Below, in pieces: positions 1,918 to 20,973 of a stretch of DNA of 27,490 nucleotides. The translations under genes and the position numbers were made by a program. The first letter of the stretch is position 1; each line of letters starts with the position of its first letter. This DNA is from a virus. The notes under the pieces are model-generated. The model searched no databases. It saw nothing but the letters and a program-made list of their open reading frames with translations, and was not told the DNA's origin. Where the stretch lies: IMG/VR virus record IMGVR_UViG_3300025159_000682, positions 1 to 27,490 of that record. One strand, 5' to 3'.

Positions 1918-3498
1918 ATGTCGGTTGGACAGATTCTTTCTGGCTCATCGCCCTTCCATTTTCTGCGTCCTGAAGAACGTGAGGAGCATCTTCGCGCAAG
2001 GAACAGGGGCGACGTGGTGCGGGTAGCACAGTTGGAGAAAACTGCCTACGAACGATTCGCTAATTCCCAACGCCAAGCGCTTGCCGACGTAGCTCTGCCC
2101 TCTCGTCCAACAGCGAAGGCTGGAGGGCTTCAGCAGCAACAGATTGATCTAGGCGTCTTGGCTGACCCAAACCAGCTAAGCCAGTTCTATAGTACAGTTG
2201 GGCAAGGAGCCGGCTCAGCCCTGAGTACAATTCTGAGCGGACTTGGCAGAACTCAGACAGGACAAGCCATTGGACAAGGGCTGAGCCGAATCGGAAACGC
2301 TGCGTACCCATCGTTAGAGCGGGCATATGCAGCCGTAGGAAATATCAATAGAGAAGATATCGGGAGGGCGCTTATGGGAGCGTCGTCGTTGTTGGCGGAG
2401 ATTGGAGTAAGTCCCCAGCTTGCAGAGGCTCCTGCAGAGGCTCAAAGTCTGATGCCGCCTCCTGCACCTAGACCTGTTCGGGGGGGCGCGGCCATAGCGA
2501 AGCCGGCTGAGCCGAAAGCCATTCCAGAGGCTCTCTCGCCAACAAGCCGTGCGGCGTTGATGGAGGTGTCTGAGCCAGTTGATCCTGCTGCAATCGCCGC
2601 CGCACAAGGCCGCTCCCCTGCTCAGCAACGCATCATGGACATTCTCGAGCAGCTTACAGGCGCTCGCGGAGGCATCGAACCTCCCGAAAAGGCCAACTTC
2701 TCCGAACGCCTTGCGAGGTTCCTCTCGGCCGCGGCCCTTGGGGCGCAACGAGGCTTGCAGAATGAAGAGGGCGCGACTGCGGCGGTACTTAGCGGCGCTG
2801 GCGGATTTGGTCTTGGAGCCGTGTCGGAGTTGAAACGAGAAGAGCGGCTTCAAGCAGAAAAGTTCAAATCAGCTCAAGAGGAATCGAAGTTCAAGGCGCT
2901 TCAACTCGAAATGCTGGGCGCGACGAATTTGGCCCAGCTTGATGCGAGGGATAGAGCGCTTGTACTGCAGGCTGAGGCAAACGCCATTCGTGCCTATTCA
3001 GCACGAAACGCGGCGATGACGGGTGATGCAAGGCGGCAGGCTTACCAAAGCACAACCATCTTGAATGCTTACAAAACTGAGTTGGAGCGATTTCGCGTCA
3101 ACGATCGCCTCCTCGGCGTGAACGCTTCTGCTGATTCCAAGGCCGCTGCCCGAGCAGCGTCTTTCCAAGCTGCTCCGGAGGTGATGAAGCCGGCAATTCT
3201 CGTTACGATGTTGGTGGAGCAAGGGAATTTGCCAGAACTTCGTCAAGCGGCACTGAATCGCGCGCTCAACGGAGATTCGGCAAAGGGAATCAGCCCTGGC
3301 ATCGACCCAACCGGGGAAACGTATCGGAATCGTCTCGTGCTGCTACGCCAGCAAGGTGCTTTTGAAGAGGCGCGTGCTTTTGAAAAAGAGATCATTGCAG
3401 ATGAAATTGCACGCATGGTGCTTGAAAATCCTAACTTGGCCGAGAACGTGTTTAGGATATACCAACAGGAGCAGCTACAATCCTTGGGTAATAGATGA
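1918..3498 (+). CDS. Internal virion protein, gp15-like position
   Basis: This 526-residue protein is mainly helical. An N-terminal segment with an HFLRPEEREEHLRARNRGD helix is followed by a Gly/Ala-rich region (about 85-165), a Pro-rich linker (about 175-210) and long Ala/Gln/Glu-rich helices (about 290-420) that look like coiled coil. No enzyme motif is visible. T7-like phages encode three consecutive internal core proteins, of which the middle one (gp15) is a long helical protein of 600-750 residues; this one is somewhat shorter. A ribosome-binding site GGAGGG lies 9 bases before the ATG. The stop overlaps the start of the giant gene downstream (ATGA at 3495-3498). The call rests on context and secondary-structure impression. 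Confidence 0.5.
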   Translation: MSVGQILSGSSPFHFLRPEEREEHLRARNRGDVVRVAQLEKTAYERFANSQRQALADVALPSRPTAKAGGLQQQQIDLGVLADPNQLSQFYSTVGQGAGSALSTILSGLGRTQTGQAIGQGLSRIGNAAYPSLERAYAAVGNINREDIGRALMGASSLLAEIGVSPQLAEAPAEAQSLMPPPAPRPVRGGAAIAKPAEPKAIPEALSPTSRAALMEVSEPVDPAAIAAAQGRSPAQQRIMDILEQLTGARGGIEPPEKANFSERLARFLSAAALGAQRGLQNEEGATAAVLSGAGGFGLGAVSELKREERLQAEKFKSAQEESKFKALQLEMLGATNLAQLDARDRALVLQAEANAIRAYSARNAAMTGDARRQAYQSTTILNAYKTELERFRVNDRLLGVNASADSKAAARAASFQAAPEVMKPAILVTMLVEQGNLPELRQAALNRALNGDSAKGISPGIDPTGETYRNRLVLLRQQGAFEEARAFEKEIIADEIARMVLENPNLAENVFRIYQQEQLQSLGNR

Positions 3499-6400
3499 CT
3501 AAGATCGACATTCCTTTTGACGAGGAAGAACGCTCTCGGCGCCCTCGGTATTCGGCCCTGCCTGAGCTTGAGGCGCTGGGCCAAGCTGCGTATGCCTCTC
3601 CGCCTCGACCGACTTTGGCGGACCAGCTCAGTTTCTCCGAAGGTGCCTTCAAATCATTCATTTACGGCCTTGGCCCTTCCCTTCTCCATATCGACCCATC
3701 ACCTGAGCTTGCTCGTTTTCAGGCCGAACACCCGATTGCCGCGCTCACGTCGGAGGTGGCCGGCACGCTTTTGCCCTATTCAATTCCGTTTCTTGGTCAA
3801 GGTGCGGTGGGGCTCAAGCTTGCATCGAAGCTTCCACTTCTAGGGCGCGTTGTAAAGACGGCCGAGGGGTTAGCGACGGCCGCGCCGGGCCGATCGGTGG
3901 CGTTGAGGGAAATGGCCCGATTCGCACCCCTTGAGGCGGCCCGTGTGGGCGCGACGGCCGCCCTAAACCCCGACAAGACCACCGAGGCGCTTACATCGGC
4001 CATCCTCAACGAGGTGCTCATTGGCGGCATCTCGGGCGGCTTGGCGTCGATTGCAGGGGGTGCGCCGTTCCGGGGACCTGAGATTAGGGGCGAGGCCAAG
4101 ATCCAGGAGAAGTTCCCCGATTGGAACAGGCTTGCCCCGAACCAATTGAAGCTGGCAAAGATCGGTGAATACTTTGTCAAGCATCCGCAGAAGGAACTCG
4201 GCGATTATTACCCTGTACTAAAGGAGGCGGCGGGGGAACTGCGCGATGAAGTGCTCGTTCAAGCGCCACGACCTCGTGTAGAGGCGATGGTCAAACGGCT
4301 CGCGGATGTAGATATTGCGCGAGGCAGCAATAATGCCAAGCGGGCGAACTCGATTTTTGGCGCCGAAGGGAAGCTGAGTCGAGGAATTCACATCCGTAAA
4401 CTCGTCGTTGGCAGTGGTGAGGGAAACTTCAATAAGCAAACTACTCTCGATGAGGTAATGGCACAGGTGGGAGGGTTGACGGACGATCAGCTCAGTCACA
4501 TGCAATTTCCTCGCCATGTCGAAACTCTTACCGAGGGTGGACGAGATAAATTCCTAACGGACTTGGCCGAGATGGGGTTGCAACCTATTAGTCGTGCAGC
4601 CGAAGGCCGTACTGGTGCGGCCATCGGTAATACGGCTTGGATAGCTAAAGAAGCAGATGGTCTCTACGTCGTCGTCAAGCGTGTCGCTAAGCGGCCAAGG
4701 CGCGAGAAGGCGGGAGATCGCTACCTCTTCTTCAAGACTGACAACCCCAAGATGTTTTTTCCTAATCAGGGTGGGCAGCTTGAAAAGACGATGGAAACGT
4801 ACTTCGCCACCGCGCGGGCTATCTCTAAGACGCCGGTCGAGCACCAAACCCCGTTGACAAACTATGCTGATCGTGTGATGAATGTGTTTACGAGAAACAC
4901 TGATTTGCGAGGTGTTCCCGGCGAGCTCAGGTCCGAAGTGGTCGCGCGTGCCTTGGTGAGGGTTCATCCGAGGCTAGAACCCGCCGGAACCGCCATCAAG
5001 GAATTTTCCAAAGTCACGTCGCGGTGGGTTGCTGATGCAAAGAAATTTGTCGCGCCTGGGCTTCATCGGTACTCTGCACACCCACTGGCGCAGCGAACGC
5101 ACCTCTTTGCGCAGGCCCTGTTCAATCGGGCGGGGGCCTTGGCGGAGCAGGAGATTTACGGTCACGAAGTTTTTTCTAAGACTGGAAACCTCTTTTCGAG
5201 TTTGTTTAGGCCGCCGAAACGGGCCGGATCTATCGACGACATGATCGAGAAAGTTTGGGAAAAGGGACCTAAGGCCGTTGAACAAATCAACGAAGCACAT
5301 GTTGCTCAGATGCCCGTTGGAGAAATGGTCGAAGAAGGGTTCGACCCAACAGTGGTCAGTCTTTACAAAAAACTTGGCCCACTTGACGAGAAGATGACGC
5401 AGTACATTGAGGCAACGGATCTTTACGTTGAGGGCGTGACTCCACTTCGACCATTGCCCTTTCATTACCATATTTCTCGTACTTGGAGAGGGTCGAATCG
5501 GTTGCCGGTTTATGCTGAGGGTGATAAGGGTCGTGTTGTGGGGTATGGCTCTGGTTATTCACGAAACCAGGCTTTGCAAGAGGCCGAATCCGTAAAGCGC
5601 ATGGCTGAGAAGCTCGAGCCAGGTAAAAAGTTCGAGTACGATACATCTGGACAGTCAATATTCCAGGTGGGCCATGAGGACGATTTGAAGCACGCCATCA
5701 AGATCAATCCTGGCGACCCACATACACAGGCTTGGTATAAGGCGAGGCGCTTGGCCGTTAGGGAACCTCTTCGGTTCAACGAGCGGACGGGTGCTCTTGG
5801 CTTCACTACGCGATTGACGAAAGATGAGTTCAAGAAGGCCCTTTACGGCAACGTTCATGAAACCTATCGCTACATGGCACAGCGATTGGTGCAAGGTAAA
5901 GCCTTCGACGACTTGTCGATTCTGAAGAAGGAAGCGCCCCTACTGTACAATGACCTAAGTGAATCCATCATGTCCTATGGCGGAGTCAAGGGCCCCTTTG
6001 CTAAGAAGGTTGATGACGCGATCGACAGCCGACTTGAGCCAGTCTTGGGGGGCAATTCCGCGTCGGAGATTGCGCGCAGGATGAATAGGGCAATGTTCGA
6101 TTGGACACTTGGGTTTGGTGATTTAGGCTTTGTCGCGCTGAACGCTGCATCGCCGATTCAAACGGTGTTGCCCGAGATTGCGTGGGTTCTTTCAGCCCCG
6201 CCGGAGCGTCTGGCTCAATACTATGCGACTGGCATGGTTATTGGGAGGGATGGAATGCCACGCAGCGTCGGTTATGTTGAGCCTCTTCGTATTCTCTGGC
6301 GCGCAATCAAGTCTATGGCGAGTCCAGATGAAGATTTGCGCGAAGCCTTCAACAAGGCAGTGAAGTTTCGCGTCATTGATAAGAAGTTCATCGAGGAGTT

Positions 6401-7604
6401 TGCTGGGGCGGCGTCGGAGAGAGCTCTTCGTATCAAAGATGCCTTTTCAGGAAAGACTGGGTTCACCAAATACCTTACTAACCTCATAGAATTTCTCCCG
6501 GCCAAGAGCGAAGAGCTGTCAAGAGGGGTTGCCTTTACATCAGGTTATCATGTTGGGCGAGATTTCTTTGGGCTAAAGGGCGATGCGCTGTTTGAATTTG
6601 CCTCGAACCTTACGAATAGAACGATGTATCTGTATACGACTGCGGATCGTCCGCGGGTCTTGACTGGCGCTGTAGGAACAGCGTTTGGGTTGTTCAAGAA
6701 TTGGCCCATGCACTATCTGGCCAATCTTGGAGTCTATGGTGGCGACGCCATGCGGGGAAACATGGCCCCGCTGCTGTGGGCCGGAATCGGGACTGGCATG
6801 GTGGCGGGGGCGGCCGGCGTACCACTCTATGGTGTAGCCGATGCCTTCTCGCGTTTGGCCAGTGATAAGTCGTTGATGCAGAATCTTTACGACGCTTTTG
6901 GCTACGGCGATGAACCAAATGCCTTCGTAGATGCGCTATACTATGGCGCGCCATCACTTTTGGGTGTAACGTTGCAGGGGCGCGCGGCAGCACCTGGATC
7001 TGCAATGGTCAGGGATCTTTCGCTGTTGTCAGACTTTGTCATGGCAGACCGCTTGCAAGCAGCGTATGAGTTGGCACCCGCCGCTTACGATGCGTGGTTT
7101 ACGACAGGCCGACATCCAGTGAACTCACAGAGCGTTAGGGATCTGTTCGTTCGTGCATTCGCGCCCCGCACGATTATAAAGGCTCTTTCGTTTACAGAGG
7201 ATAACGCCTATCGGAGCTTGCATACTGGGAATAGGCTGATCTCTAACACGACGCTCCCTGAGTATCTCGCTCATGTTTTCGGCTTTACGCCCATTGAGTT
7301 CGACAAATACCAGGATATATCGAACGAACTCTGGACTGACCAAAATAAGAGGCGCGAGGTTGTACAGACTTATGGCGCGGCCCTAGCTGAAGCGTGGAAC
7401 ACACGAGATGCTCGTCTTGGCCAGGATATTATACGAAGGGCGATGCTACAAGCAGCACCGATTTCATCTGTCATGCGCTCAGCTAAGGCTCGGGTGGCTA
7501 AACAAAACGAGGATCTTATCGAACGGCAGTTCTCCACTTATCCGAGGGCGCAACTTCAGAAGAGCTTGCTCGGTCCCGGGGCCTTAATTTCAAGGCAGCC
7601 TTAG
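3495..7604 (+). CDS. Giant internal virion / DNA-injection protein, gp16-like
   Basis: This is the largest protein in the window at 1369 residues. By size and place it matches T7 gp16, the ejected protein that spans the cell envelope and helps draw DNA into the cell. I do not see the lytic transglycosylase motif found at the N-terminus of T7 gp16. Hydrophobic stretches lie near residues 90-118, about 170-190 and about 1088-1115 (ALLWAGIGTGMVAGAAGVPL); the last could cross a membrane. The region before it (LTNRTMYLYTTADRPRVL, then FGLFKNW) resembles segments found in other very large phage virion proteins. The start overlaps the previous stop by 4 bases. Function is inferred; no catalytic domain is recognised. 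Confidence 0.55.
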   Translation: MTKIDIPFDEEERSRRPRYSALPELEALGQAAYASPPRPTLADQLSFSEGAFKSFIYGLGPSLLHIDPSPELARFQAEHPIAALTSEVAGTLLPYSIPFLGQGAVGLKLASKLPLLGRVVKTAEGLATAAPGRSVALREMARFAPLEAARVGATAALNPDKTTEALTSAILNEVLIGGISGGLASIAGGAPFRGPEIRGEAKIQEKFPDWNRLAPNQLKLAKIGEYFVKHPQKELGDYYPVLKEAAGELRDEVLVQAPRPRVEAMVKRLADVDIARGSNNAKRANSIFGAEGKLSRGIHIRKLVVGSGEGNFNKQTTLDEVMAQVGGLTDDQLSHMQFPRHVETLTEGGRDKFLTDLAEMGLQPISRAAEGRTGAAIGNTAWIAKEADGLYVVVKRVAKRPRREKAGDRYLFFKTDNPKMFFPNQGGQLEKTMETYFATARAISKTPVEHQTPLTNYADRVMNVFTRNTDLRGVPGELRSEVVARALVRVHPRLEPAGTAIKEFSKVTSRWVADAKKFVAPGLHRYSAHPLAQRTHLFAQALFNRAGALAEQEIYGHEVFSKTGNLFSSLFRPPKRAGSIDDMIEKVWEKGPKAVEQINEAHVAQMPVGEMVEEGFDPTVVSLYKKLGPLDEKMTQYIEATDLYVEGVTPLRPLPFHYHISRTWRGSNRLPVYAEGDKGRVVGYGSGYSRNQALQEAESVKRMAEKLEPGKKFEYDTSGQSIFQVGHEDDLKHAIKINPGDPHTQAWYKARRLAVREPLRFNERTGALGFTTRLTKDEFKKALYGNVHETYRYMAQRLVQGKAFDDLSILKKEAPLLYNDLSESIMSYGGVKGPFAKKVDDAIDSRLEPVLGGNSASEIARRMNRAMFDWTLGFGDLGFVALNAASPIQTVLPEIAWVLSAPPERLAQYYATGMVIGRDGMPRSVGYVEPLRILWRAIKSMASPDEDLREAFNKAVKFRVIDKKFIEEFAGAASERALRIKDAFSGKTGFTKYLTNLIEFLPAKSEELSRGVAFTSGYHVGRDFFGLKGDALFEFASNLTNRTMYLYTTADRPRVLTGAVGTAFGLFKNWPMHYLANLGVYGGDAMRGNMAPLLWAGIGTGMVAGAAGVPLYGVADAFSRLASDKSLMQNLYDAFGYGDEPNAFVDALYYGAPSLLGVTLQGRAAAPGSAMVRDLSLLSDFVMADRLQAAYELAPAAYDAWFTTGRHPVNSQSVRDLFVRAFAPRTIIKALSFTEDNAYRSLHTGNRLISNTTLPEYLAHVFGFTPIEFDKYQDISNELWTDQNKRREVVQTYGAALAEAWNTRDARLGQDIIRRAMLQAAPISSVMRSAKARVAKQNEDLIERQFSTYPRAQLQKSLLGPGALISRQP

Positions 7605-7816: not shown

Positions 7817-7851
7817 GATCGGGAGTGAAGGACCTTACTTCACTCCCGATC
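7817..7851. terminator. Convergent-operon hairpin
   Basis: Perfect 14-bp inverted repeat, gatcgggagtgaag (7817-7830) and its complement (7838-7851), with a 7-base loop. It lies between the rightward virion operon and the leftward replication operon. The helicase stop codon lies in the loop, so one arm encodes the protein's last residues. There is no good T-tract on either side, so it may act as a bidirectional stop or as a 3'-end-protecting structure rather than a canonical intrinsic terminator. Confidence 0.6.
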
Positions 7852-9070
7852 TCGTTATAGTGATGGGGGTGTAAAACATAAAAGGCTCATCCCCTTCGCG
7901 AACGATCCACTGCATTTTTACGAGGCTGTCGAGCAACAGTTGGACAACGTGGAGGGGTACATCAGCAGCGAGCTCTTGTCGCAAGCGGTGCTCTGGCACA
8001 GGTTTAGCCGTTATGCGATATAGGGACTCGACAAGGCTGCGACCCAGCTTGAGCTGGTCATAGAACTCGTTCGCACCGATACTTGAGACTGCGTGTTGCA
8101 TAAAGGATTCAGCCTCAAGGAGGACGGCCTTGGCGATTTTGACCTCCTCTAACGTTATGATCCTCTCATCGCTTCGGGCCGCAGCAAAAATCATACAAAG
8201 TTTGCTAAAATGAGCCATTCGCCGCTCGCAATAGTAAAGCAACCGCGGGTCCTTAGGAGCTGGCGGAAGTCCATCCTCTTTCCATCGCTCTAGTGCATCG
8301 GCCGCGTCTGCCTCCCATTCGTACTCGCCAGTTATGTGAAGCATGGCTTCGAAGTCGTGGATTAGTTGCTTACGGACGTTTTCGTTGAAGTTGGTCTTGG
8401 GCGCGCGATCGACGCCACGCTTCTTGAGTTCGGTAGGTACTACGATACGCTCCTCGCTATAAACCATGACCAGGCGTGAAGGGAACCCACCTTCAAGGGT
8501 TTGATCTGAGAATCTTTCCTTGAGCTGCTTTGGAGTCATTCCGCCTGCCATGACGAGGCAGGGGTTCTCTAGGTGGTTCTCACCTGAGGTTTTGGTCGAG
8601 TAATCGCGGACAATGGGGTTGTCGTAGAGGTCAGCTAAAAACGACATAAACTGCTCGTCGTTTTTCTTCAAAAATACGGCCATCTCATCAATCAACGCAA
8701 CGAGGGCCATATGACGTTCGGAGGTGCCATTCATGTTGACGATTTGCACCGAGCCTTCGAGCTTTTCATAGAAGGCTTCTTTAGTTACGTCGGTGGGAGT
8801 CAACTTGAGTACGGACGCCTTCGATGCAGGAACAAGAATTTGATCCCGCACAATCTTCAACGCCGTGGACTTACCACTGGCCGGTGGGCCTATAAGCAGC
8901 ACGTAGAGATTTGGGTATTGCGTTTGGCCCTCCACGTCCATATAAGCCCGGCGCTGGAGAGCACCGCTTACGGCACAAATTCCTGCCCATAGGCGAAAGA
9001 TTCGTGGGCTCTTGACACCTTCAGTAAATTGAAGGTATGTCGAGATCCAGTCCTCGAGAATACGGCTCAA
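7835..9070 (-). CDS. Phage replicative helicase/primase-type ATPase, DUF3987-like
   Basis: This 411-residue P-loop protein has Walker A GPPASGKST at about 61-69 and Walker B LVALIDE at about 123-129. The N-terminal helical part (EDWISTYLQFTEG, then AGICAVSGALQRR) is typical of DUF3987-type proteins, which in phages usually stand in for a replicative helicase or primase-helicase. The C-terminal ~80 residues (KPVPEHRLRQEL onwards) look like a winged helix. I chose the TTG at 9070 because GAGGAG sits 7 bases before it and it lies 11 bases after the polymerase stop; the longer open frame upstream only shadows the polymerase gene. It is the last gene of the leftward replication operon. No separate primase domain is visible in the window, so priming is unexplained. 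Confidence 0.75.
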   Translation of the reverse strand: MSRILEDWISTYLQFTEGVKSPRIFRLWAGICAVSGALQRRAYMDVEGQTQYPNLYVLLIGPPASGKSTALKIVRDQILVPASKASVLKLTPTDVTKEAFYEKLEGSVQIVNMNGTSERHMALVALIDEMAVFLKKNDEQFMSFLADLYDNPIVRDYSTKTSGENHLENPCLVMAGGMTPKQLKERFSDQTLEGGFPSRLVMVYSEERIVVPTELKKRGVDRAPKTNFNENVRKQLIHDFEAMLHITGEYEWEADAADALERWKEDGLPPAPKDPRLLYYCERRMAHFSKLCMIFAAARSDERIITLEEVKIAKAVLLEAESFMQHAVSSIGANEFYDQLKLGRSLVESLYRITAKPVPEHRLRQELAADVPLHVVQLLLDSLVKMQWIVREGDEPFMFYTPITITRSGVK

Positions 9071-9081
9071 CTTGCAACTCC

Positions 9082-10569
9082 TCAGATCGCGATGTCGAGA
9101 ATGCTTACCTCTTTGCGGCGCACAAGCGCAGCGTTTGGGGAGCCACGAGGAGCCATATCGTCCTTGCACCAGGTATAGCCAACTTTGATCTCTACGGGAA
9201 CGCGAAGTGCTCGACCGTGGATAAAGATGGGGTTGTTCATAAGAGCAAGAACGCAATCGTGAACTTCATCATCGTTCTCATCGAACTGATAAACGAAGGA
9301 GTCATGGACCTGGTTGAGAACCTGAATACGGCCTTCGTGCAGATCCAGTTCTTGCCAAACCTTCATCAACCCAAGATCTAGGTTATCTACAATAATGGAC
9401 TGTGGGGTGTATGCAACCGCCTCGCGCAAAGTTGCATCGTCATGAAGACGGCCGAAGAAATAGCGCTGCCGACCATAGGAGGTGGTGAGTTTTCCGCTTG
9501 CTTGAATCAGCTCCTGCACGTTGTGATGATAGCGACGGATGCCAGAGAAGACTTCAAAATAGCCGCTCTGAAACTCCTCAGCAATGTCCTTCTCTATTTT
9601 GAGGTGTTTTGCGATCGTGAAGGGTGTGGCAACGTAGTTACTAGCATGTCCACCACGCTTGGCAAGATCTCGTCGAGAGAAATGGCGGTAAAATATCTGT
9701 TCCGCCAGCGCCTTATCCCTTTTGTCATCACCAGTCCATACCACATCCTTCCAGACGAGTCTCGCAGTGAAAGTATGCAAATCCCCGGATTCGCAAGCGG
9801 CGATGTAAGCTTCATCACGAGCCAGATACGCGACTGCGCGGGATTCTGCTTGAGCCAAGTCAATCTCAGCCAGTTTCTTACCTGGGTCAGCAACGAACAT
9901 CCTCCTCATCTTATTAGTAATGTTTTGAAAGTTGGTGCCTGTGCCGAAGGCGTTTTTATTCGACGCCCACCGACCCGTTTCAGTCATCTTCGGGCGGTAG
10001 CCGCAGCGCATTCGCCCGTCAGAATCTACACCAAGTTTGAGGATACCGATGAGCTTGGCTATGTCACGCAGCTTGAGAATGCAATTGATGAAGGGTTCAG
10101 TGTAAAAATAGATCTCGCGCAACTTCTCAAGCGCCTCTCGATCGGTCGTTTGACGCCTTTCGCCCTTGACGTTTTTGTATTGAATTGGGAGCTGCATGAA
10201 ATCGTAAAAAAACGACATCAATTGCTTTGGTGACGCCTGGTTGAGCCCGCTTCCCCAAAGAGCCTCTGCAAGGCGTTGAAGGATTGAATCGACCCTGGTA
10301 AATTGTTTGTCTAGGTTGTAGAGATTCTCAGCACGCGCGGCCTGATCAATCAAAAAGCCCCGCGCCATCATCGCTAGCGCGGGGCCTTGCATAGCAAAGT
10401 CGAAGCGGTAAGTACGTTCTGTTATAGGCATCAACTGCTGGTCAAGAATGCCATTTATCTCGGCAGTGAGACAACAGTCGAGGCCACAATAGATCCAATC
10501 TTGCTCCTCAGGATTGAACTTCGATGTCTCCCCCGGCGCCAGTGATCCAGTGTTGATTACCTTCGCCAT
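9082..10569 (-). CDS. Family A DNA polymerase, polymerase-domain polypeptide
   Basis: This 495-residue product covers the palm, fingers and thumb of a family A polymerase but not the exonuclease body. Motif A is EIDLAQAESR (catalytic Asp about 237). Motif B is RDLAKRGGHASNY (Arg about 300, Lys about 304, Tyr about 312). Motif C is QVHDSF, the catalytic Asp being in HDS. The GRWASNKNAFGTGTNFQNI stretch before motif A is also typical. Residues 27-31 read YCGLD and match the Exo III motif Y-x3-D (T7 gp5 Asp174), so the protein begins inside the proofreading domain. Exo I and II lie on the separate UDG-exonuclease protein two genes upstream. The ATG at 10569 follows GGGGG by 7 bases and overlaps the preceding gene by 62 bases. 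The fingers helix has His where T7 has Tyr526, and Val where Gly is usual. Confidence 0.9.
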   Translation of the reverse strand: MAKVINTGSLAPGETSKFNPEEQDWIYCGLDCCLTAEINGILDQQLMPITERTYRFDFAMQGPALAMMARGFLIDQAARAENLYNLDKQFTRVDSILQRLAEALWGSGLNQASPKQLMSFFYDFMQLPIQYKNVKGERRQTTDREALEKLREIYFYTEPFINCILKLRDIAKLIGILKLGVDSDGRMRCGYRPKMTETGRWASNKNAFGTGTNFQNITNKMRRMFVADPGKKLAEIDLAQAESRAVAYLARDEAYIAACESGDLHTFTARLVWKDVVWTGDDKRDKALAEQIFYRHFSRRDLAKRGGHASNYVATPFTIAKHLKIEKDIAEEFQSGYFEVFSGIRRYHHNVQELIQASGKLTTSYGRQRYFFGRLHDDATLREAVAYTPQSIIVDNLDLGLMKVWQELDLHEGRIQVLNQVHDSFVYQFDENDDEVHDCVLALMNNPIFIHGRALRVPVEIKVGYTWCKDDMAPRGSPNAALVRRKEVSILDIAI

Positions 10570-10891
10570 TGTTAGGCCCCCGTTTGATAATGTAGCGGAA
10601 CTCGACAGGGATCTTAGCAAAAGGAGCCATCTTGAGTAGATAACTCGTAGATGGTCCAATGCCGTGATCTGCGTAAACGACCAAACGCTCGCACCTACGC
10701 ATCACAAGATGTTCGGCATAAGATAGTGCCGTTGGCGCGAGCTTTTGAACGTGCTCATACATAAGGTCGCCGTTGATTGGGACTTCCCCGCGCAGAAAGG
10801 AGTCCCGAAGCACTTTGAGCCTGTATCGTCGCATCAAGCTCTGGTGTGCGGCGGGCGGGCACGAAACGTAGACGACAGGATGGTTAGTCAT
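10508..10891 (-). CDS. Deoxyribosyltransferase-fold-like protein inserted between the polymerase halves
   Basis: This 127-residue protein has a start, PVVYVSCPP, and a later segment, RLVVYADHGIGPSTSYLL then KIPVEFRYI, that match the layout of nucleoside 2-deoxyribosyltransferase-like phage families (DUF4406/DUF7768 type: beta strand plus P-rich loop, then G-x-S near a helix). The usual Glu in the second motif is not obvious, so catalysis is doubtful. The ATG at 10891 overlaps the stop of the UDG-exonuclease gene by 8 bases, and the C-terminus overlaps the polymerase start by 62 bases. It is therefore translated between the two parts of the split polymerase. No homing endonuclease, intein or intron feature is visible. 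A nucleotide-metabolism role is a guess. Confidence 0.6.
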   Translation of the reverse strand: MTNHPVVYVSCPPAAHQSLMRRYRLKVLRDSFLRGEVPINGDLMYEHVQKLAPTALSYAEHLVMRRCERLVVYADHGIGPSTSYLLKMAPFAKIPVEFRYIIKRGPNNGEGNQHWITGAGGDIEVQS

Positions 10892-11972
10892 CTTTATCTT
10901 CCATCTTACGTCCACGAGATCGCTCAAGCTTCCAGGCCACCTCGTCGGTGTAGACACTGCCCATGAAATGAAGGTCTTTTGGGAGTTCGGGCTGGATAGC
11001 GTGGTGTTTGATCTGCGTGTCCTCGCGGAAGTTACGTGGAGACATTTTGAAAACTGTGCGAAGCCAAATAGTGTCGTAGACACCACCCTGCATCAGCTTC
11101 GGCACGTCTGACTCAACTATGTGCTTGCACCAGAGGTAAGCAGCCTTCTCTTCCTCGAAGGTCGGCCAATAGTTGTAATTCGGCTTAGTCGTATCATGAA
11201 AAGGTACAACGATGCCGATGGACTTATTCACGGCGAAGCCGATACAGCGCAAGATTCTTGGCCGTCTAGTCTCAATGTCAACGCTAAGGAGTTGGCAATG
11301 TGGCATGTAAGTGGCCTCGAACGTGTACAGGTCTTCGATCGTGGGTGCTATCCACAACTCCCGCTCAGGCCGCCGAATTCCATCGAAGGTTGCGTGGCGT
11401 TTAGCCTTCAATAAGTCCGCGAGGACTGATGTGCGAACTTCATAATTGCGGAGGACGTGTGCGGGATGGAAGGTTGGAACGATTTTAGCGGGCACCAAGG
11501 TAGCGAAGTTGACATATCCTCTGGCCTTAGTAATTTTGGGGATGGTCAAGGTCAGAGCCCACAAGGCCGTATTGCCCATAGGTACAATGACACGAGGCTT
11601 GAACGCCTCCAGCTCGGCCCGAAGTCGATCGAGGCTGTAACAATATTCGGGCCTGACGTATTTGCCAGGCTCTACAGGCGGTAAAGGATAGTCGGCAGGA
11701 AGATCGGATTTACTACAACAGATGTTCCCAACCTTGTTATCTGGCAACTTGAAGTTGAAAACATTCGCAATGAGGGACTCTGACCGAAGAATACCTGCGT
11801 GGTGGAGGAGAGAATTGAACTCTTGACCAGATGAACCAACCAATGGTCGCCCCTGCTCAACCTCATCAATACCTGGAGCTTCGGCAACAAAGGCCATTTC
11901 GTTCGAGACGATTGGGAATTCAGATGGGACGATTGGATCATCTGTTGGTTTTGGCAAGTGCTCATGTGTCAC
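10884..11972 (-). CDS. Uracil-DNA glycosylase - 3'-5' exonuclease fusion (SPO1 polymerase-like N-terminal half)
   Basis: This protein has about 362 residues. Residues 1-190 form a UDG-superfamily domain (family 4/5 style): EAPGIDE at about 31-37, RPLVGSSGQEF, PRVIVPMGNTAL, and TFHPAHVLR at about 167-175. The two N-terminal cysteines of Fe-S family 4 enzymes are missing, while CC (about 85-86) and a later Cys (about 111) remain. Residues from about 225 form a DnaQ/PolA-type exonuclease: Exo I SVDIETR (Asp about 232, Glu about 234), Exo II GVYDTIWL (Asp about 300), then DTQIKHHA and SVYTDEVAWK. The chain stops just before the place where Exo III should be; that motif is on the downstream polymerase. 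SPO1 carries UDG, exonuclease and polymerase in one chain. GTG 11972 fits the AAAAGG site; TTG 11990 is possible. Confidence 0.8.
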   Translation of the reverse strand: MTHEHLPKPTDDPIVPSEFPIVSNEMAFVAEAPGIDEVEQGRPLVGSSGQEFNSLLHHAGILRSESLIANVFNFKLPDNKVGNICCSKSDLPADYPLPPVEPGKYVRPEYCYSLDRLRAELEAFKPRVIVPMGNTALWALTLTIPKITKARGYVNFATLVPAKIVPTFHPAHVLRNYEVRTSVLADLLKAKRHATFDGIRRPERELWIAPTIEDLYTFEATYMPHCQLLSVDIETRRPRILRCIGFAVNKSIGIVVPFHDTTKPNYNYWPTFEEEKAAYLWCKHIVESDVPKLMQGGVYDTIWLRTVFKMSPRNFREDTQIKHHAIQPELPKDLHFMGSVYTDEVAWKLERSRGRKMEDKDD

Positions 11973-13338
11973 GATCGTCACCCTTTTCAAGCTTGTTCAA
12001 CCAAGCTGAGTGGGCCGCCTGCAATGACAGCTCCACACACTCGGGGTTGATATCGGCGCCAAGGATTCGACCAGCACCGCACTGAATACCGGCGACAAGC
12101 GCAGATCCGGCCCCACAGGTGGGGTCGAACAATGCCGTAGACTTATCTATGAGCATCGAGAAGAACTTCGCGAGCATACCAGCTGGTTTTTCAGACAAAT
12201 GGCGCGATTTGGTCTTCTCTAGGGGCCAGGTTACAACGTTTGGTACGGCCCTTACAATCTTGCGGTCGCCCTTGGTGATGAGCAGCGCAGTTTCATAGAC
12301 TTGGCGCGGGCCTCTTTGTGGGTCTGGCAAAATGCCGCGGAGATCAGACTTGAACCAGATCAAAGGAAATGGGTTTACTGTAAGGCCAACTCCCTCAAAT
12401 GCCTCCACCGTCTCAGTGTAGTATTTCATTGAGAACCAAAACATGATGTGAGCATCTGGTTGCAATAGCTTGTCTTGATTCTCAACTAGCGTGGAAAGGA
12501 GCTTGAAATAGACCTCGGGAGTGTCTTCGTACTTTACGGACTCCCAATTGTCTGCCGAACCCTGTTCAGATTCGTTGTGGTAGATGCCGTAAGGGAAATC
12601 ACAGTGTAAAAAGTTGAATCTGTACCCGCCAAATTCCTCACACACCTTCTCGAAACTTTTCTCGATGACCGGAACATGCTGCTGAAATTTTCTCTGGATG
12701 GTCGAACCGGCAGTGATGGCGTTGTCGAAGATTTGATCCATCTCATCTGATTCGAGATCAGTCGCGTGGTCGTCTGGCATCGCGGCCATCATCTTTTGTA
12801 CATCTGCGTCGATTGCGCGGGCTCGGCGCCGCTCAAGAATGTTGTATGCGGCGGAGAAAGTCTCACACCTTTCTAGCTCAATGTCGCCGCGTCGGATAGC
12901 CTCCATGATTTCGAGTCTCTTCACTACGGGTGCGCGTGAGAGGCCGATAGCCTCAGCACACTTATCAATCGTGAATGAAGGATCGAGACCCTTTCGGAAC
13001 TGAAAATACTCATCAACTGCGCCGGCCTCTTCCTGCCATGTAAGGTCGCTGCGCTTGATGTTTTCTTCGAGCTCAATAAGCCTAAGATCGCCTGGCTCCA
13101 TCTCGTCGGAGAACTGACATGGAACGAGCACATCCTCGGTGTAAATCTTTCGTAATGCAAGAAGCCGTCTGTGGCCCGCAACGAGGACATACTCGCGTGT
13201 GATGACGAGAGGATGGATTAGGCCAAGACGGCGAATAGAATCAGCAAGGGAATCTATGTCACGAAAGTTTTTTCTCTGCCTGCCCTCCGATACTACGATC
13301 CGACCCAGCGCAACCTGGTGAAATTCTCCGCTTGTCAA
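11962..13338 (-). CDS. ParB-like N-terminal domain fused to a DNA methyltransferase
   Basis: This 458-residue protein has a ParB/Srx-type domain at residues ~1-110, with GRIVVSEGRQRKNF, a DSLADSI-x2-LGLIHPL segment and the AGHRR signature at about 54-58. A helix-turn-helix follows (about 124-151, DKCAEAIGLSRAPVVKRL). The C-terminal half (about 215-458) is a beta-class amino-methyltransferase (N6-adenine or N4-cytosine): motif IV DFPYG at about 247-251, the HLSEKP element at about 380-385, and SAM-binding DPTCGAGS at about 405-412. The Pro-Tyr part of motif IV is intact; the residue after Asp is Phe rather than Pro. I prefer the TTG at 13338, which follows GAGGAG by 6 bases, over the TTG at 13368. 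It overlaps the next gene slightly. Likely roles are self-DNA modification or ParB-directed methylation; the target is unknown. Confidence 0.82.
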   Translation of the reverse strand: MTSGEFHQVALGRIVVSEGRQRKNFRDIDSLADSIRRLGLIHPLVITREYVLVAGHRRLLALRKIYTEDVLVPCQFSDEMEPGDLRLIELEENIKRSDLTWQEEAGAVDEYFQFRKGLDPSFTIDKCAEAIGLSRAPVVKRLEIMEAIRRGDIELERCETFSAAYNILERRRARAIDADVQKMMAAMPDDHATDLESDEMDQIFDNAITAGSTIQRKFQQHVPVIEKSFEKVCEEFGGYRFNFLHCDFPYGIYHNESEQGSADNWESVKYEDTPEVYFKLLSTLVENQDKLLQPDAHIMFWFSMKYYTETVEAFEGVGLTVNPFPLIWFKSDLRGILPDPQRGPRQVYETALLITKGDRKIVRAVPNVVTWPLEKTKSRHLSEKPAGMLAKFFSMLIDKSTALFDPTCGAGSALVAGIQCGAGRILGADINPECVELSLQAAHSAWLNKLEKGDDRDT

Positions 13339-13528
13339 GACCTGCTCCTCTCGTGTAGCTGTACACAACCAGTTCGTCGCTGATGGCAGTTAGGCGCTGG
13401 CGAGCCTTGTGCCACTCGTCGCGCGTATAAAACTCGGACGTTTCTAGTAGCTCGCCTGGAAGTTTCCAAGTTACTACCCAAGAACCGGCTTCAGTTCTCT
13501 CAACGGCAATGAAGGCGATACGTTCCAT
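13259..13528 (-). CDS. Small protein of unknown function overlapping the ParB-methyltransferase start
   Basis: This frame encodes 89 residues. The ATG at 13528 follows GAGGAA at a normal distance and fills the only room between the methyltransferase and the upstream terminator-like hairpin. The N-terminal 60 residues look like a genuine protein (beta-rich: ERIAFIAVERTE, SWVVTWKLPGE, then EFYTRDEWHKARQRL). The last ~27 residues overlap the methyltransferase gene and are of low complexity. I recognise no family. The 80-base overlap is larger than others here, so either this C-terminus is a readthrough tail or the methyltransferase starts later. Confidence 0.5.
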   Translation of the reverse strand: MERIAFIAVERTEAGSWVVTWKLPGELLETSEFYTRDEWHKARQRLTAISDELVVYSYTRGAGLDKRRISPGCAGSDRSIGGQAEKKLS

Positions 13529-18937: not shown

Positions 18938-20740
18938 TTACAAAGCGGTCCAGGTTGTACCGTCGCAGCGGCACAAGACCTCGAAAGCGCCTGTTGTGGT
19001 CGGATTGCAGTCGGTGGCGCTGTCACCGTCGCTGATGGAAAGAATCATCCCTTGATTACCTGACTCACAAGGCACGAGGGACAGATCCTCAAGAAGACCT
19101 CTGGGATAAACGGCGCCTTGATGCGCGACTCGAGATTGATTGCCTATGATTGTTTGCATCGCGAATGACTCGTTTGACCAGCAAAATCCGCTAAACCCGC
19201 CACCTGTGCCCGCATCCGCGACAGGCGTGCCACTGGTACTTGCGAGATCAAACAAGTTACCAGAAAAGATGTTGCGCATACCGTTGTTACCGGCAGCGTC
19301 TATTGGCGAGAGCGTAGCTGGATTGTCGAGCACGATTGGGCACAAAAATCCTCCACCCGTTTGCCCCTCAAAGTTTGCAGGTACCCAGCGGTGCCAGATA
19401 TTGTTGGCTATTACGTTGCCACTGTTGCAGTTGCCAGTACTGCCGTCTGGGTACTCACAAGTAACACCAGTGTTCGTGAAATTTATGCCCCGAGAGATGC
19501 AGTAGCTGCGATCGTCACAAGAGAATACGTTGTTGGCGATGTTAGCGAAGTTGTAGCCTTGTATTTCAATTTGCGTTCCACTACGGTCGCATGTTGCATC
19601 GCCGGTTCCGCTACCTGTGCAACAGTCAAATGGCTCATTGAGGGCCGTACAGCACATGTGGTTAGGGTTGGTAAGGATACAACCTCTCGCTGTCGTGCGG
19701 GCTCCGTTACCGATCCAGGTATTTCCGGTAAGCTGGAGGTATGCACCCGCCTCAAGATCTCTCTGCCCGCCGGCCATTGGCAGCAGCAAAACGCCCCAGA
19801 AATCTCCAGACAACCCTTTCATGGAGAAGGTGTTGTTGGTGGCGCGAACTCCATCGGCCAGATACTTTACGAACATTCCTTTAGTTGTGGGTCTAAGCGA
19901 AGGATCTTCCTCGGTTGGTGAAAAGATCATCGAACCAGAGACCCAACAGTCCTTGCAGAAATGAAACTCAAGACCTCTTCCAGATCCGGCCACCTTACAA
20001 TTGGTGAGCCAGACGCGGCGCGATGGGTAGTCTCCGCCATTGGTGACTCCCCTCCACTCATCACCGTTTACCCAAATGGCGCGGCAGATTTGGCCGTTGA
20101 TCTCTGAATAATCGCCGTGAAGATCGTCGCAGGTGATTTGACTAGTAATAATCTGAACATCTTCCGCCTCTTGAATCTTAAGGGTGGCGGTGAGGGCCTG
20201 ATCGTCACAGAGGTCTGTTGTTGGGTTGCACAGATCATGCATTGCTATAGTCATGTTGTGAAAGAGGATGTTGCTGGAAGGTACAGGCCCTCCAACAGCA
20301 TCATCATCCCGTCCGTAGACGCGAATCATAGACATTCTGAATGGCGTTGCGAAGTCCTTAGAATTGTAGCTCCACTCAAGTATCGTTCTGTCGTATCCTG
20401 CACCTGCGAAGAAGATATCTGATCGCTCAAAGATTTCAAAACATCCCTGATCTGTGCTCATCGTGCCTGGAGTACATGTGAAGGTGAAGGTGCCGGATGG
20501 AATCATCACGAGGCAGCCGTTAGTGCAGGTAGCGCTCGCAATCACCTCAGCCAAACCGCTCGTTGTTGAACTGGGATACTGGCTAGGAATGAGCGTTACG
20601 CGCTGGATGCTAGAGTTGTTGATGTATGACTCTAGCGTAACGCCAGAATCTAAGATGATGCGCTTGTCGTCTATGGTAATTTGTGCGCTGGCCAACTGCG
20701 CGAAGAGCGCAAAAATCCCAACCAACACTGCGATTCTCAT
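18938..20740 (-). CDS. Exported cysteine-rich parallel beta-helix (pectate-lyase-like) protein
   Basis: This 600-residue protein has a signal peptide (MRIAVLVGIFALFAQLASA, cleavage before QIT). The body shows repeats with NN, GN and N-T-x-W-x-GN steps (VRATNNTFSMKG, LQLTGNTWIGNG, IANNVFS, VIANNIW, NIFSGNLFD), the pattern of right-handed beta-helix tailspikes and polysaccharide lyases. About 27 cysteines occur, several paired (CC), mostly in the second half, so disulfides in an oxidising compartment are likely. The end (CRCDGTTWTAL) resembles tail-fibre tips. The longer open frame upstream is rejected because ATG 20740 with AAAGGAAA is at the right distance. Phage spikes normally lack signal peptides, so this could be a secreted enzyme acting on the host envelope. 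No catalytic residues are assigned. Confidence 0.7.
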   Translation of the reverse strand: MRIAVLVGIFALFAQLASAQITIDDKRIILDSGVTLESYINNSSIQRVTLIPSQYPSSTTSGLAEVIASATCTNGCLVMIPSGTFTFTCTPGTMSTDQGCFEIFERSDIFFAGAGYDRTILEWSYNSKDFATPFRMSMIRVYGRDDDAVGGPVPSSNILFHNMTIAMHDLCNPTTDLCDDQALTATLKIQEAEDVQIITSQITCDDLHGDYSEINGQICRAIWVNGDEWRGVTNGGDYPSRRVWLTNCKVAGSGRGLEFHFCKDCWVSGSMIFSPTEEDPSLRPTTKGMFVKYLADGVRATNNTFSMKGLSGDFWGVLLLPMAGGQRDLEAGAYLQLTGNTWIGNGARTTARGCILTNPNHMCCTALNEPFDCCTGSGTGDATCDRSGTQIEIQGYNFANIANNVFSCDDRSYCISRGINFTNTGVTCEYPDGSTGNCNSGNVIANNIWHRWVPANFEGQTGGGFLCPIVLDNPATLSPIDAAGNNGMRNIFSGNLFDLASTSGTPVADAGTGGGFSGFCWSNESFAMQTIIGNQSRVAHQGAVYPRGLLEDLSLVPCESGNQGMILSISDGDSATDCNPTTTGAFEVLCRCDGTTWTAL

Positions 20741-20757
20741 GAAAAAGTTTCCTTTCT

Positions 20758-20973
20758 TTAGGGCTGAAATGGCTCGCCGGTGCAGCCACCACAACCGGCC
20801 GGGTAGGCCGTACACGAGTCTTGAGGGTTGCAGCAAACGTCACCGATGCTGTTGCGACAGCAACAAAGGGGTTGCTCGGGGTCACCAGGATTTCTGCTAG
20901 TAGCTGATATGATTATATAGGCCGAGATGATCCAAACGGAGATAAGAAGGCTGTAAAGTAGAGACGATTTCAT
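20758..20973 (-). CDS. Membrane-anchored Cys-rich small protein
   Basis: This 71-residue protein has a hydrophobic N-terminus (SLLYSLLISVWIISAYIII) that acts as a signal anchor or uncleaved signal. A short domain follows with eight Cys in about 30 residues: LCCC, VCC, SC, and GCGGC. The spacing is that of a disulfide-rich knob. AGAGGG lies 8 bases before the ATG. It precedes the Cys-rich beta-helix gene by 17 bases, so the two are co-expressed and both enter the envelope. No family is recognised. Confidence 0.6.
   Translation of the reverse strand: MKSSLLYSLLISVWIISAYIIISATSRNPGDPEQPLCCCRNSIGDVCCNPQDSCTAYPAGCGGCTGEPFQP

Follow-up and report, generated by a model that had tools for sequence, protein, structure and literature searches.

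A family-A phage DNA polymerase divided between two genes through its proofreading domain

Closest described systems and the divided gene

Split phage polymerases are known already, as are split enzymes that reassemble. The family-B polymerase of Aeromonas phages 25 and 44RR is divided into gp43A and gp43B, and the phage 25 halves co-purify and polymerise (PMC2988022). The NrdA protein of phage Aeh1, split by mobE, reassembles and is fully active (PMC2988022). In the OM43 phages MEP401 and MEP402, PolA occupies two open reading frames (ORFs) with a small unknown ORF between them, an arrangement that was read as a possible intron (PMC10580990). Here, we describe a different division, found in a 27,490-nucleotide stretch of viral DNA (IMG/VR record IMGVR_UViG_3300025159_000682, positions 1 to 27,490; hereafter, the window). 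A family-A DNA polymerase is encoded there by two genes, the first carrying a uracil-DNA glycosylase (UDG) domain and the exonuclease motifs Exo I and Exo II, the second carrying Exo III and the polymerase domain. Sequence conservation and fold modelling make it probable (roughly 0.83) that the two products form an obligate two-subunit replicative polymerase, with a composite proofreading site built from both chains.

How does this arrangement compare with the known ones? The closest systems are the single-chain UDG-exonuclease-PolA enzymes (phrog_17; the SPO1/PaBG type, Microcystis phage Mel-JY34 and MW202489), a type described in PaBG (PMC7412058). These have the same domain order and motifs and form the neighbouring clade on the polymerase tree, but they are one chain, whereas the split clade has two genes with conserved new ends. 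Klenow/Pol I (1kfs, 8oo6, 1kln) also has the same exonuclease-polymerase arrangement, but in one chain, with no UDG, and with Phe762 where the clade has His. The gp43A/gp43B split, on the other hand, affects family B in a few related phages and involves a seg homing endonuclease or an untranslated insert, while Aeh1 NrdA is a ribonucleotide reductase with a homing endonuclease in its gap, unlike the gene in the window's gap. By analogy, the reassembly of split NrdA and of gp43A/B may serve as precedent for that of a split polymerase. In the OM43 phages, the cut lies inside the polymerase domain, whereas in the split clade it lies between Exo II and Exo III. The divPolA1/2 proteins (PMC11348598) were considered as the same system and rejected, one having all three exonuclease aspartates replaced and the other lacking the domain. 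In the open-access literature that we searched, we found no report of this clade, of a family-A polymerase whose chain is interrupted between Exo II and Exo III, or of a polymerase split fixed across so many diverged lineages.

All of the genes concerned lie on the minus strand of the window. The first (P0001; 10884..11972) encodes 362 residues, starting from a GTG codon (an alternative TTG at 11990 is possible). A family-4-like UDG domain at residues 19-180 (11433..11918; Pfam PF03167, 1.6e-16) is followed by Exo I, D232-I-E234 (11271..11279), and by Exo II, QGGVYD with Y299-D300 (11073..11090), in which the motif Asn is replaced by Gly. The stop codon comes 62 residues beyond D300, ahead of any Exo III, and the protein ends in a tail of 14 residues past a Trp-Lys pair, the last being K-D-D (10887..10928). 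The second gene (P0002; 9082..10569; 495 residues) opens with a conserved segment, MAKVINT in the window, that is a predicted docking strand (10498..10569). Exo III follows after 26 residues (Y27-C-G-L-D31; 10477..10491), and then the polymerase domain at residues 83-467 (PF00476, 4.5e-41; 9169..10323). For this gene, the ATG at 10569 is taken as the start in preference to a TTG further upstream, since MAKVIN then lines up with the first residues of its relatives.

An earlier note, made from the letters of the window, had described the first gene as UDG plus Exo I and Exo II without Exo III, and it was right as to coordinates, strand and motifs; a complete exonuclease in the first protein was looked for and not found. 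Its reading of the second gene, as opening with the YCGLD of Exo III at residues 27-31 and running on into a full polymerase, agrees with both Pfam and our own reading of the motifs. So does its claim that the domain order is that of the single-chain enzyme, since the two proteins fall consecutively on phrog_17, the UDG-exonuclease-polymerase family (P0001 on columns 481-788, P0002 on columns 807-1237), with only about 18 columns absent at the cut. The product thus has the domain order and whole-profile homology of a single-chain UDG-exonuclease-PolA enzyme, but in two polypeptides. It belongs to family A by its PF00476 domain and by the catalytic Asp of motifs A and C, and the DEDDy exonuclease residues (Asp-x-Glu, Asp, Tyr-x3-Asp) are complete, shared out over the two proteins. 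A profile of the split-clade UDG-exonuclease proteins, compared with the sequences of PDB structures, matched type-4 UDGs and the UDG part of one phage polymerase, but no exonucleases. The His of the UDG HPx motif is found in 48 of 56 split lineages.

Breadth and descent of the split

For each half, a four-member profile was scanned against viral contigs, and the best 80 loci of each scan were taken; the polymerase scan gave 524 related stretches, of which the lower-scoring ones lie outside the locus set. The halves are separate ORFs in 157 examined loci, with the UDG-exonuclease gene preceding the polymerase gene in every case. This count includes a few overlapping cuts of one contig and two members of the single-chain group that are broken elsewhere. 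In one of these (L239, 4923-7607), the polymerase is broken in the palm (profile positions ~215-218), which recalls the OM43 phages; in the other (L245, 679-3380), the break lies between UDG and Exo I and leaves the UDG and the exonuclease-polymerase as two ORFs. The split clade proper comprises about 155 fetched loci in 56-57 lineages (<75% identity), so the split through the proofreading domain that the earlier note had proposed is borne out far beyond one phage, and the identical cut position in so many loci excludes chance. Loci with one half only were mostly truncated by a nearby contig end, L012 being only distantly matched. Among the best 80 loci of a scan made with single-chain enzymes, nearly all were single-chain genes, and no re-fused member was found inside the split clade among the fetched loci. 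A search of GTDB genomes gave two split members only, both in contigs of metagenome-assembled genomes assigned to Acidobacteriota.

The clade also includes an isolate, Caulobacter phage Kuura (OQ067476), which has the same arrangement: Kuura_029 (UDG-exonuclease), two small genes, and Kuura_026 (DNA polymerase). The Kuura paper lists the polymerase, and the word "split" is absent from it (PMC9959647). Kuura_029 is annotated as hypothetical, a label that can now be corrected and under which the polymerase would be taken to be without proofreading.

In a polymerase-domain tree of 57 split and 46 fused lineages (<75% identity), the two groups are separated on one branch (SH-aLRT 99), with a single change of state between them. 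The root has no independent fixing; as the most distant outgroups are fused, the most economical interpretation is that a fused ancestor split once. The termini of the deep lineages L098 and L252 match those of the other members. Judged from these sequences, the split is real, conserved and ancient.

A proofreading site probably shared by two proteins

Has the divided site been kept? The Asp and Glu of Exo I, the Tyr and Asp of Exo III, and the Asp of polymerase motifs A and C are each present in 56/56 split lineages. The Asn and Asp of Exo II are each present in 55, the sole exception for the Asp being L015, which has Glu. In close pairs, the median ratio of nonsynonymous to synonymous substitution (dN/dS) is 0.10 for the UDG, 0.105 for the Exo I-II part, and 0.066 for the Exo III-polymerase part, and distances in the exonuclease half are correlated with those in the polymerase half (r 0.58; 0 of 2000 permutations as high). 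Together, the kept catalytic residues, the low dN/dS and the correlated distances fit a shared active site, not a lost one.

The new ends are conserved as well. Single chains mostly have 16-20 residues (mode 17) from the Trp-Lys pair to the Exo III Tyr, whereas split pairs have about 14 after Trp-Lys in the first protein and another 22 or so before the Tyr in the second. Both ends are thus longer than a simple cut would leave, and have gained conserved residues. The first protein ends in K-[KR]-[DE]-[DE]-stop, with Lys at -4 in 45 of the 56 lineages and an acidic residue at -2 in 52 and at -1 in 51; since these residues are constant while codons and stop codons vary, the tail is conserved at the protein level. 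The polymerase half starts with a conserved Mx[IV][IV]xT. The possibility that the KKDD/KRDE tail is a translated Shine-Dalgarno site was rejected, as the codons for K, R, D and E vary and the stop codons differ. A Shine-Dalgarno-like string does occur near the end of the UDG-exonuclease gene in 35 lineages, with none there in the other 21.

Structure modelling points the same way. An in-frame relative (L058), with its stops and spacer read through as a linker, was modelled with AlphaFold2 from 69 aligned rows. The joined model had a mean confidence (pLDDT) of 86.8 and a predicted TM score (pTM) of 0.83, with the halves mostly above pLDDT 90 and the spacer (residues 334-439) disordered. By a rough estimate, halves with no fixed relative position would give a pTM of only ~0.53, the share of the larger half (508/950), and their placement is therefore confident. 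The top Foldseek match was Klenow (1kfs_A, TM 0.74), with 1kfs, 8oo6 and 1kln at 0.74-0.76 by target length. Compared with whole Bst and Taq Pol I chains, the TM score rose from 0.57-0.65 for the polymerase half alone to 0.76-0.81 for the joined model (target-normalised, joined versus alone: 1xwl, 0.76/0.60; 3eyz_A, 0.77/0.59; 2bdp_A, 0.76/0.60; 3po4_A, 0.81/0.65), although the two runs used different alignments. From this gain, the exonuclease half appears to be placed as in Pol I. The polymerase half alone had a pLDDT of 92, its first 40 residues scoring lower, and an N-terminal strand, RIID, was present in the joined model and absent from the half alone.

From these observations, a mechanism may be proposed. 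Subunit 1 would comprise the UDG and most of the DEDDy 3'-5' exonuclease domain, with the metal-binding residues of Exo I and Exo II, while subunit 2 would supply the last exonuclease helix, with the Tyr and Asp of Exo III, plus the polymerase domain. The two would be made adjacently, probably off one transcript, and subunit 2 would dock onto subunit 1 through the N-terminal strand that precedes its Exo III, giving a Klenow-like enzyme in which residues of both chains form the proofreading site. Presumably, a single break, in the Exo II-Exo III loop of a single-chain UDG-exonuclease-polymerase ancestor, gave rise to the split, which was then kept, with small genes, often of nucleotide metabolism, gained and lost in the gap since. 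Such an enzyme would be a natural system where proofreading could be removed or swapped by omitting or exchanging one subunit, and it allows one to ask why a divided active site is retained.

Several points weigh against this mechanism. Complex formation is supported by sequence and by the joined model rather than directly. The artificial linker favours contact between the halves, the Pol I fold is already familiar to AlphaFold2, and the modelled protein is that of a relative, not of the window. The placement of the halves was judged from pTM, pLDDT and TM scores only, and the C-terminal tail of the UDG-exonuclease half was not confidently placed. Finally, the window itself is the only one of the 56 lineages in which the Exo II Asn (Klenow N420) is replaced by Gly, encoded by GGT, a change of at least two bases.

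This last point bears on activity in this phage, since the exonuclease of the window is less certain to be active than those of its relatives. One alternative is, therefore, that the complex forms and holds the UDG near the polymerase, but that the composite exonuclease is inactive here through a local loss. In favour of this alternative, an independent contig (L001; IMGVR 3300025319_000829) encodes the same protein. The five DEDDy residues are all present, however, and the Asn, conserved yet outside that set, is not among them, which leaves a purely local loss unlikely. An extension in the opposite direction would make the divided site a working feature: throughout the clade, the replicase would be an obligate UDG-exonuclease/polymerase heterodimer in which docking or undocking of the exonuclease subunit could switch proofreading and uracil removal, coupled to the nucleotide-metabolism gene often present in the gap. 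We regard this as a doubtful speculation.

Alternatively, proofreading may have been lost throughout, the polymerase half working alone and the UDG-exonuclease half serving in repair as an independent protein or surviving as a relic. Working proofreading is absent, for example, from the Pol I of Taq and Bst. The confident fold of the polymerase half alone would suit such a loss, as would the Exo II substitutions in the window and L015. It is hard to reconcile, however, with the fact that the acidic residues of Exo I, II and III and the Tyr of Exo III are retained, across both genes, in 55-56 of 56 lineages that have diverged deeply, or with a dN/dS of ~0.1 on the exonuclease half. A lone UDG would have no need of Exo I and II, nor a lone polymerase of Exo III, and we consider general loss improbable. 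Thus, of the two outcomes that the earlier note left open, the data favour assembly in trans over lost proofreading, because of the catalytic residues, the dN/dS values, the new termini and the linker-joined fold model.

The gap between the genes and other observations

In the window, the halves are in different reading frames and 314 bases apart. Between them lies a gene for 127 residues (10508..10891) with a weak match to DUF7768, of the nucleoside-deoxyribosyltransferase-like group (clade profile, E 8e-12); a literature search found no paper naming DUF7768. This gene shares 8 bases with the UDG-exonuclease gene and 62 with the polymerase gene, overlaps that suggest one transcript with coupled translation. 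Across the loci, the distance from the UDG-exonuclease stop to Exo III ranges from ~65 nt (L168) to ~1.9 kb, and the gap may hold DUF7768, DUF1937, a nucleoside deoxyribosyltransferase match, MazG, DUF3310, DUF6378, a GGACT protein and, in one lineage, an HNH nuclease. In 26 of 56 split lineages, among them the window, the gap contains a deoxyribosyltransferase-like gene of the DUF7768/DUF1937 kind. In the fused set, such genes occur upstream of the polymerase gene only, in 5 of 46 loci, three of them directly adjacent or overlapping, so that the slot ahead of the polymerase ORF looks conserved.

Could an intron, an intein or a programmed frameshift nevertheless unite the chains into a single mature protein? 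Introns and homing endonucleases often lodge in the genes for phage replication enzymes (PMC2988022, PMC10580990), and the spacer of L122 does carry an HNH nuclease. In L168, however, there is no spacer at all, the stop and start overlapping as TGATG, which shows that an intron or insert is not required for the split and rules out a still-present insert as its cause. An Rfam intron search of the window and 14 other loci gave no match. Elsewhere, the spacers, up to ~1.9 kb, hold unrelated complete genes; the termini are conserved right up to the stop and from the start codon; no intein features were evident by eye; and the halves of the window are out of frame with each other. A joined product is thus very improbable. 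The chance that one gene was broken by an error in sequencing or assembly is negligible, as the L001 contig aligns with the window over 9485 bases at 99.86% identity (13 mismatches, 0 indels), which excludes the sequencing frameshift allowed for in the earlier note, and the isolate Kuura and ~150 other contigs carry the same split.

A homing endonuclease as the usual resident of the gap was likewise rejected, the gene in the window being DUF7768-like and the HNH gene occurring in L122 only. That gene (L122, 6031-6630) encodes an HNH endonuclease with a zinc-finger-like region, and may be a homing element within a gene that was divided before.

The polymerase half has one further peculiarity. 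At the position of Klenow Phe762 in motif B, P0002 has His308 (9646..9648, minus strand), and His is found there in all 56 split lineages as well as in 37 of the 38 single-chain relatives that could be read at this position; for virioplankton PolA, the residues discussed at 762 are Phe, Tyr and Leu (PMC6302109).

As to the neighbouring genes of the window, the ORF downstream of the polymerase gene (7835..9256, minus strand) is DUF3987 helicase/primase-like, its true start probably lying below 9256, and a similar ORF is positioned after the polymerase in L010 and L014. Directly upstream of the UDG-exonuclease gene (11962-13368) is a gene whose product combines a ParB-like domain at the N terminus with an N6/N4 DNA methyltransferase; upstream of the single-chain relatives in Mel-JY34, MW202489 and a Desulfofustis phage, too, there are genes with methylase or ParB-like annotations. 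Two large proteins of the window, encoded at 3495-7604 (1369 residues) and 18938-20836 (632 residues), have no Pfam match; the latter has no PHROG match either, and is encoded on the same strand as the replication genes.

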